Virus record (IMG/VR): IMGVR_UViG_3300021961_000328
Span: 1-33,907 of that record
Reading direction: 5' to 3' (one strand)
Origin: a virus
Length of the DNA: 33,907 bases
Of the stretch, positions 10,191 through 12,330 are shown piece after piece. Position 1 is the first letter of the stretch, and every line of letters starts with the position of its first letter. The translations under genes were made by a program, and so were the position numbers. The notes beneath the pieces are model-generated. The model did not search any database and had not been told where the DNA came from. It worked only from the letters and a program-made list of their open reading frames with translations.

Positions 10191-10220
10191 CAAGAAGAAA
10201 AGAGGGGCCGAAGCCCCCCT
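10190..10220 (-). terminator. Terminator with C(UUCG)G tetraloop
   Basis: The minus strand reads AGGGGGGC, UUCG loop, GCCCC, then TCTTTTCTTCTT. The stem is capped by a very stable C(UUCG)G loop and followed by a T-rich tract. It ends the single-gene unit at 10654-10268 just before early promoter 1. Confidence 0.85.
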
Positions 10221-10267: not shown

Positions 10268-10654
10268 TTACCAGAGGTATATTGCAGGCGGCTTTAACTC
10301 ATCAGTATCAAAGTAAACAACTTCCCTACTGATCGCAAATCTTTGTACGCCTTGTTCCATGAGCGACCTAACAAGCTTAAGACGCTTTTTATATCCGACA
10401 CATCTAATTTGAATAGCCTTACCGATGCGGTGAGAATTATCGCTAACCAAACCAAGCTTATCAGCAACAGGCTTAGATGTATATCCGAGAGTGACATTTG
10501 GTGTATATTCATATCTATGTGCAGCTCTATCAAGTGCAATTACTGGTTCTCGTTCCATAAAACGATATCCTGATCCAGGAGAGTCTGAGCTATCAAACAT
10601 AGACCATCTCAGCACTCGTAGTCCTTCTCTATCTAATTCTTCTTCTTTGGTCAT
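10268..10654 (-). CDS. Degenerate M15-peptidase-like protein
   Basis: 128 aa from ATG 10654; a TTG at 10684 would add ten residues. The fold signature of phage M15 D-Ala-D-Ala peptidases is intact: FDSSDSPGSG (20-29), NSHRIGKAIQI (73-83), RFAISREVVYFDTDE (105-119). Two zinc ligands are changed: the Asp of HxxGxAxD is Gln-82 and the His of the HxD motif is Tyr-114. The usual ITSGYRT is VTLGYTS. It is therefore probably inactive as a peptidase but may still bind cell-wall peptides. It forms its own unit between a promoter (10741) and a terminator (10190), separate from the lysis genes. Confidence 0.75.
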   Translation of the reverse strand: MTKEEELDREGLRVLRWSMFDSSDSPGSGYRFMEREPVIALDRAAHRYEYTPNVTLGYTSKPVADKLGLVSDNSHRIGKAIQIRCVGYKKRLKLVRSLMEQGVQRFAISREVVYFDTDELKPPAIYLW

Positions 10655-10740
10655 CTCGTTAAAGTATCGGGGAGGCTCCCACAAAGATAAGTTTCCCTTA
10701 ATATCTCATACCTCCCCTAACCTTATAATTAGAAACTACT

Positions 10741-10771
10741 CAAAGATACAAATAAATATCTGAGATATAAA
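10741..10771 (-). promoter_or_regulatory. Promoter of the M15-like gene
   Basis: The minus strand has TATCTTTG (10741-10748), an exact TAnnTTTG. Twenty nt upstream is only TTT instead of TTG, so the -33 element is weak. The next gene starts at 10654, with a leader of about 80 nt that contains a small GGGAG/CTCCC inverted repeat. Confidence 0.55.
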
Positions 10772-10797: not shown

Positions 10798-10828
10798 TTG
10801 ATTATGTCAAAAAAAAGTTGTAACTTTA
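10798..10828 (+). promoter_or_regulatory. Rightward promoter in front of the candidate RNA
   Basis: The plus strand reads TTG (10798-10800), exactly 20 nt, then TAACTTTA (10821-10828), the same spacing and TAnnTTTA form as early promoter 1. The expected start, about 10833-10835, coincides with the 5' arm of the RNA stem. It is the only rightward promoter I found. Confidence 0.5.
10809..10827 (-). terminator. Weak leftward terminator candidate
   Basis: The minus strand has AAAGT, TACA, ACTTT followed by further T residues. The 5-bp stem is weak. It could end the lysis-operon transcript after 10925, but the same bases form part of the rightward promoter, so one reading may be accidental. Confidence 0.3.
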
Positions 10829-10833
10829 CCACG

Positions 10834-10904
10834 TCTTACTGTTAGTAACATATGCAAGTTGCGAGAGCATTAAGCGGAAGCAACTTGACAGACGCCGAGT
10901 AAGA
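10834..10904 (+). ncRNA. Candidate structured small RNA
   Basis: A 7-bp outer stem TCTTACT/AGTAAGA (10834-10840, 10898-10904) encloses an 8-bp perfect stem CAAGTTGC/GCAACTTG (10855-10862, 10880-10887). The purine-rich loop holds a GC/GC mini-stem flanked by GAGA and GGAA. GTTA/TAAC at 10841-10849 adds a small palindrome. No ORF lies here. A promoter-like sequence points at its 5' end. It is not a tRNA: there is no T-arm or CCA-adjacent stem. The reverse strand folds too, so a 3' UTR of the lysis operon is the alternative. No Rfam family recognised. Confidence 0.5.
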
Positions 10905-10924
10905 TTACTTTGAATACAGGATAG

Positions 10925-11311
10925 CTATATTGTTTTGTAGTTCCACCTAGCCCTGGTTCCTCTAATATCGTAATGAGTGAACGTATTGTAGCGTCCTACT
11001 CCCCCTTCTTTTAATAGCCCCGTAGAGATAAGAAACTCTATGGCATCAGCTACTTCATCTGGAGTGTATCCTTTTACAACTATATCGGCAGCCTTTCCAA
11101 GGACGTGCTGACTGGTGTCGTTTGAGCCTATCTTGCGATTATGCTCTAAACTTCTATACGCACTATTGATTGTTATTGGAGCGTTAAAATGAGATCTGAT
11201 AATCTCAAGCTGAACAGCAAGTTCTGCTATATTGAGCTGAACCTCTATTGGCATCTCTGATCCATCTGAACAATCAAACTCTTCTCTATTAAAGTTCTTA
11301 GTAAGATTCAT
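10925..11311 (-). CDS. M15-family peptidase, probable endolysin
   Basis: 128 aa. This is a Peptidase_M15_3-type zinc D-Ala-D-Ala peptidase with all ligands: ITINSAYRSLEHN (47-58), SQHVLGKAADI (67-77; His-69, Asp-76) and THYDIRG (112-118; His-113). It starts FNREEFDCSDGSEM, the usual entry of the domain. It would cut peptidoglycan cross-links or stem peptides at lysis. It lies directly after the holin-like genes and so completes the lysis cassette. No signal peptide is visible, so export depends on a holin. Confidence 0.9.
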   Translation of the reverse strand: MNLTKNFNREEFDCSDGSEMPIEVQLNIAELAVQLEIIRSHFNAPITINSAYRSLEHNRKIGSNDTSQHVLGKAADIVVKGYTPDEVADAIEFLISTGLLKEGGVGRYNTFTHYDIRGTRARWNYKTI

Positions 11312-12305: not shown

Positions 12306-12330
12306 ATTAAAAGAGGGGCTATTGCCCCTC
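12306..12330 (-). terminator. Terminator overlapping the stop of the 81-aa gene
   Basis: On the minus strand GAGGGGC (12324-12330) pairs with GCCCCTC (12313-12319), and TTTTAAT follows. The TAG stop (12319-12321) of the 81-aa gene sits at the loop and 3' arm, so ribosomes finishing translation may weaken it. It separates the structural genes from the lysis cassette. Confidence 0.75.

Follow-up and report, generated by a model that had tools for sequence, protein, structure and literature searches.

Why does a virus genome whose long genes all run leftward carry, in one of its intergenic gaps, a promoter that points to the right? We addressed this question in a 33.9-kb virus record (IMGVR_UViG_3300021961_000328), the whole 33,907 nucleotides of which are referred to here as the window; the host of the virus is marine flavobacteria. 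On the left side of the site lies the early region, with gene A, an ERF annealing protein, an AAA ATPase, a RusA-like resolvase, an exonuclease, a methyltransferase and the terminase, and on the right side lie the lysis and structural genes. The 270-base gap between the start of gene A (10654) and the stop of the M15_3 endolysin gene (10925) is where the late (lysis) transcription unit meets the early (recombination/replication) one. The gap holds the rightward promoter and the first early promoter, placed back to back, and a hairpin; no open frame or rightward gene that the promoter might serve was found at this locus in the window. The original prediction had read the site as a rightward promoter aimed at a structured small RNA in an otherwise leftward genome, and every element that it named (promoter, inner stem, loop, mini-stem, outer stem and the CGTC/GACG pair) is present. 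The features of the locus are as follows.

10268..10654 (−): gene A, divergent; M15-fold protein with two of three zinc ligands lost
10741..10748 (−): −7 box TATCTTTG of the leftward gene A promoter, predicted start 10736; no clear −33 TTG in the window
10798..10828 (+): rightward promoter; −33 TTG at 10798–10800, 20-nt spacer with an A8 tract, −7 box TAACTTTA at 10821–10828
10833 (+): predicted transcription start, from a sigma-A box at −12 to −5 (PMC9723704)
10834..10904 (+): outer 7-bp stem, TCTTACT (10834–10840) with AGTAAGA (10898–10904), from the minimum-energy fold; window only
10855..10887 (+): core hairpin; 8-bp stem, G..A/G..A purine internal loop (GAGA/GGAA), GC mini-stem, loop AUUAA; supported by covariation and by out-of-sample model matches at the promoter-linked site
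10919..10930 (+): 3′ motif GGATAGCTATAT, overlapping the M15 gene stop codon on the opposite strand; sole exact copy in the window
10925..11311 (−): M15_3 endolysin gene, convergent with the RNA; Pfam PF08291 (8.8e-22), PHROG endolysin (2.1e-40)

A host-type promoter and its predicted start

The −7 box and spacing of the rightward promoter are the same as those of Bacteroidota sigma-A promoters (TAnnTTTG with a TTG ~19–21 nt upstream): the window box carries A as its last base, and the boxes of relatives vary as far as TAACTTTG or TAACTTCG. In Flavobacterium psychrophilum, the sigma-A box TAnnTTTG spans −12 to −5 (PMC9723704), and this placement predicts a start at 10833, the foot of the hairpin, within the interval 10833–10835 proposed originally. 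Among the 18 loci compared, the box TAACTT[TC][AG] is kept throughout, and the TTG spacer measures 20–21 nt in 17, the remaining one (L106) being rearranged, with 24 nt. Judged by its sequence, the element would be a strong Bacteroidota sigma-A promoter of the host's usual type. In relatives the same box precedes the RNA, which is placed there between the end of the lysis gene and the leftward early gene that comes first, and the hairpin covaries; this bears out the idea of a promoter aimed at a structured RNA.

Across the whole window, the pattern TTG-N(18-21)-TAACTT[TC][AG] has one match on the + strand and none on the − strand, GNNAGCNNNNNGCGNNAGC occurs once against 0.00 expected, and a descriptor of the hairpin matches once against a mean of 0.0 in 100 shuffles; both descriptors were composed after the hairpin had been seen. 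Because they were chosen post hoc, the main protection is provided by the out-of-sample model matches described below. In contrast to Bacteroidota sigma-A promoters at large, the strict form TTGACNNNGTCAAAAAAANNNNGTAACTTYRC was found only in viral contigs, in 16 viral stretches versus none in 257 Gb of genome contigs. Several of these matches are unrelated phages with the promoter ahead of early genes, and the window's own copy, TTGATTATGTC, deviates from the strict pattern. A relaxed pattern matched 19 viral and 18 genome stretches, the latter nearly all Bacteroidota going by record title; one such record, labelled Balneolaceae, is very similar to two flavobacterial records. The promoter's complement was also considered as a leftward terminator, but the short stem concerned is not conserved and the idea was dropped.

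The core hairpin and its internal loop

The inner stem pairs CAAGTTGC (10855–10862) with GCAACTTG (10880–10887) over 8 bp and encloses the internal loop GAGA/GGAA (10863–10866/10876–10879) and a GC/GC mini-stem (10867–10868/10874–10875) capped by an A-rich loop. Taken singly, the window sequence does not fold with significant energy (z −1.5, with 16 of 200 shuffles equally good), so the case rests on comparison. In relatives, the hairpin arms vary while the shape is kept (AAGTTGC/GCAACTT, AAGTGGC/GCCACTT, GTTTGTAGC/GCTACAAAT, TTTGTGGT/ACCACAAA and TAGAGGC/GCCTCTA). A first covariance model, built on the window, L003, L004 and L006, was searched against 64 sources (473 kb, both strands), and its matches at E <= 1 were confined to the promoter-linked site in the window, L005, L045/L113, L065 and L009. 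A second model recovered L072 (1.7e-8) and L007 (0.065) out of sample, and was positive in 7 of 42 records, with a single copy in each.

MAFFT misplaces the 3′ arm, which alignments A3 and A5 shift by one base, and the covariance-model alignment A9 was therefore used in their place. In this alignment, which is fitted to the structure and contains the four seed sequences, 98.7% of the paired cells are paired, compared with 24–38% in slid controls; for this reason, the out-of-sample matches outweigh such percentages. Two-sided changes occur at five pairs, and the covariation score is 0.443, compared with 0.137 ± 0.045 in shuffles, none of 500 being as high. A covariation search in relatives, which the original prediction had proposed as a check, thus gave a positive answer. 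Fitting by hand kept 96 of 108 stem cells in 12 loci, among them L108 and L035, which neither covariance model recovers; exact relatives are few, at ~12 contigs, some of them near-identical. Collectively, these comparisons indicate that the inner hairpin 10855–10887 is real and is conserved with compensatory changes.

The internal loop measures 3×3 or 4×4 (2×2 in L035), and its sides start with G and end with A in 22 of 22 cases from 11 loci, a count that omits L035 because its loop boundary is ambiguous. Such G...A sides fit predicted sheared G–A pairs. They make sense only on the + strand, which is accordingly favoured; the promoter also favours it. We consider it very unlikely that the hairpin is part of the leftward late mRNA, as a 3′-end or intergenic structure past the lysis gene, with the rightward promoter a coincidence. 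A perfect stem can fold on both strands, and the hairpin lies directly past the lysis stop codon, as this reading would have it; however, the internal-loop sides would become U...C in that mRNA, G.U cells outnumber A.C cells by 3 to 1 (a weak indication), and relatives have a sigma-A promoter upstream at a similar distance. By contrast, it is highly probable that the + strand carries a real RNA gene, the fold of which is kept in at least 12 related uncultured viruses while its sequence changes.

Other loci depart from this form. In a second group (L008, L089, L103, L104 and L106), the promoter and place are kept and the hairpin is longer and uninterrupted, itself showing partial covariation; the same RNA may have diverged here, or another may have replaced it. 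Since the stem there is uninterrupted, either the loop is dispensable in this group or the RNAs differ. In the phages L011, L024 and L118, the 3′ motif of the window recurs with a promoter and a structure of another, AT-rich kind, next to a NinG-like gene. In L002, a gene occupies the place of the element, which is absent from L112 and L115.

No Rfam 15 family matched at the gathering threshold, and a relaxed threshold gave a chance mir-969 match (E 0.78). Nucleotide searches of isolate phages returned chance matches only, two Nonlabens phage genomes gave no covariance-model match, and 299 host genomes of one family gave no R2 matches in a search run without a positive control. The papers found on phage noncoding RNAs concern mostly Proteobacteria phages, and a 2025 review of the subject makes no mention of Bacteroidetes or Flavobacteria phages. 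The RNA would constitute a new family within phage noncoding RNAs.

Outer pairings, the 3′ motif and the end of the RNA

The hairpin had been proposed to have two levels. The inner stem is the conserved part; the outer stem is confined to the window and missing from the consensus of relatives, and its pairing across loci is not above shuffles (combined p 0.21; window alone, 0.05). CGTC (10832–10835) and GACG (10891–10894) are present in the window, and the pseudoknot suggested for them was abandoned upon inspection because the pairing is not kept in relatives. Local 5′ and 3′ hairpins, together with a strand-exchange idea based on them, were not clearly above shuffles, and a conserved small peptide was rejected by inspection, as the ATG frame of the window is not kept in L005 or L006.

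The 3′ motif GGATAGCTATRT (10919–10930) stands at the close of the element in the window and in L035 and L045, and L011–L015 and L024 have it next to other, AT-rich structures; exact copies, which occur in a subset of relatives, lie ~75–95 nt downstream of the −7 box. A scan for the motif additionally gave probable chance matches within coding sequence (L120, L122, L125, L127, L128 and L131). A single-stranded stretch of this kind could make the product a base-pairing small RNA that pairs with a phage or host mRNA, and the exactness of the 12-nt motif in several relatives and its uniqueness within the window speak for such a role. Nonetheless, we regard this as unlikely: other loci with the core hairpin (L003–L005 and L108) carry degenerate forms of the motif, in L119/L126 it sits directly ahead of an ATG, in an mRNA leader, and matching sites near gene starts of the window do not exceed chance (RNA pairing, 3 of 45 at p<0.05). 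The analysis identified neither a protein partner nor a target.

No rightward intrinsic terminator lies near the hairpin in the window, the first + strand site being at 12313, and the RNA may therefore continue as antisense. Terminator-like hairpins are present in L104 and, by inspection, in L106, where the RNA would stop after ~100 nt.

Neighbouring genes and proposed mode of action

In the window and in most relatives, the RNA faces an M15 endolysin gene; L108 and L035 have a spanin-like lipoprotein in this convergent position, and L045, L065, L111 and L024 a holin-like gene. These functional labels were given by inspection rather than by profile. The hairpin is kept though the convergent gene switches among these three kinds, and the earlier suggestion that the RNA regulates the lysis peptidase is weakened, since the same RNA faces a different gene in relatives. 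Phage PAK_P4 of Pseudomonas likewise makes an RNA antisense to an endolysin gene, PAK_P4as15 (PMC12197685). That RNA is ~550 nt long, whereas the window RNA overlaps only the 3′ end of the gene and relatives carry other genes there. A dedicated endolysin antisense RNA of the PAK_P4as15 kind is unlikely, as the convergent gene varies and the hairpin persists beside neighbours other than an endolysin.

Regulation of the M15-like gene A, the other neighbour originally put forward, would fit most loci, in which gene A is the divergent neighbour; against this, L011, L024 and L118 adjoin the NinG-like gene, which takes the place of gene A as divergent neighbour in L024 and L118, two loci whose RNA structure also differs, and L112 and L115 have the divergent gene without the RNA. 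Gene A encodes a conserved M15/hedgehog-fold protein (AlphaFold pLDDT 89.5; best PDB match 1LBU, E 2e-3). By profile this protein matches active M15 peptidases (E 1e-12), and two of its three zinc ligands are substituted, KAVDI reading KAIQI/KAVRI and FVHLD reading VYFD. It is likely, on this modelling, to be a pseudo-peptidase adjoining the active M15 endolysin. The host-genome proteins that match it are M15 peptidases of the ordinary kind, for which the scan used found no divergent promoter. The leftward gene A promoter takes the form TTG-N19-TATCTTTA in L003 and L004. The 5′ leader of gene A (10660–10715, −) contains a kept hairpin, GGGGAGG-N~35-CCTCCCC, just before the start codon, and in another lineage the leader shares the loop TTGGATTCTGGT; this hairpin is a possible cis-regulatory element. 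Downstream of gene A, a strong leftward terminator, AGGGGGGC-TTCG-GCCCCTCT-TTTC (10201–10220, −), suggests that gene A forms a separate unit.

The arrangement at the junction resembles that of OOP and its promoter pO in phage lambda, a short counter-transcribed RNA by the replication region that overlaps its convergent neighbour at that gene's 3′ end (PMC3985674, PMC12197685). The window RNA shares the opposite strand, the early region and the 3′-end overlap, provided that it reaches the 3′ motif, and the likeness is one of arrangement only. No homology was seen; the host phylum and promoter differ, the G..A internal loop is conserved here, and the window has no terminator near the hairpin. 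Moreover, lambda keeps cII as the antisense target, whereas here the convergent gene varies. An effect in cis of this type is the main rival to our reading, although we hold it to be rather unlikely. Transcription against the end of the late operon, through collision or as antisense to the last lysis gene, would limit late read-through into the early operon, and the hairpin would just stabilise the RNA. Consistent with this, among the loci examined the RNA opposes the 3′ end of whichever lysis gene comes last, although this gene varies, no leftward terminator was found between the M15 gene and gene A in the window, the nearby rightward terminator is lacking there as well, and lambda pO works by convergent interference (PMC3985674). 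However, such an effect requires neither the kept G..A internal loop nor base-pair covariation, and the hairpins of L104 and L106 would end the RNA at ~100 nt.

A structured RNA at or near an early promoter is also seen in the put RNA of phage HK022. Like put RNAs, which are ~70 nt long and act on RNA polymerase (PMC9378689), the element lies immediately downstream of an early-type promoter, and it has a purine internal loop. It is nevertheless highly improbable that the element serves rightward transcription as a put-like antiterminator leader acting in cis: put RNA has two stem-loops in ~70 nt and acts in cis on downstream early genes, whereas the window RNA has one supported hairpin and the window no rightward gene.

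We favour a dedicated noncoding RNA gene of a flavobacterial phage lineage, spanning 10798 to ~10930 (+). Sequence comparison supports its promoter, the covariation of its hairpin and its position, and from these we infer the transcription, timing, 3′ end, action in trans and protein partner that we propose. Host RNA polymerase with the primary sigma factor would start at ~10833 and yield a counter-transcribed RNA of ~100 nt or more, built on the core hairpin with its G..A-bounded purine internal loop. Most likely, this RNA would be made early and would act in trans as a structured RNA with a function of its own. Action in trans could by itself go either way in our estimation, and we see an RNA gene together with such action as about evenly balanced. 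The kept non-canonical internal loop suggests protein binding, which we propose tentatively as the way in which the RNA may work. In full, and with similar caution, the RNA may represent a new early noncoding RNA family of flavobacterial viruses whose purine loop is bound by a protein of the host or the phage, such as RNA polymerase, a nuclease or a defence protein, and which is kept at the late/early junction while its neighbours are exchanged. In an abundant lineage of marine viruses, the locus offers a small element that can be tested: the predicted RNA is compact, its hairpin covaries, its promoter is of the host type and its late/early place is fixed. The covariance model can be used to look for more such RNAs.

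Further structures follow promoters of this type elsewhere. In another phage group (L083, L085, L087, L091 and L097), the strict promoter is followed by a structured stretch of 130–150 nt before early genes, which ends in covarying terminator hairpins (CCGAC..GTCGG and CCGCT..AGCGG) and is a second candidate RNA. The host genomes L147 and L148 (Dysgonomonas and Chryseobacterium) have tandem TTGACTTTGTCAAAAAAAA..TAACTTTG promoters with the same palindrome after each, and in three genome records (L142, L146 and L149) a similar promoter precedes a near-identical long stretch, GGCAAGCTTTATGCGAAT...AAAGCTTGG.
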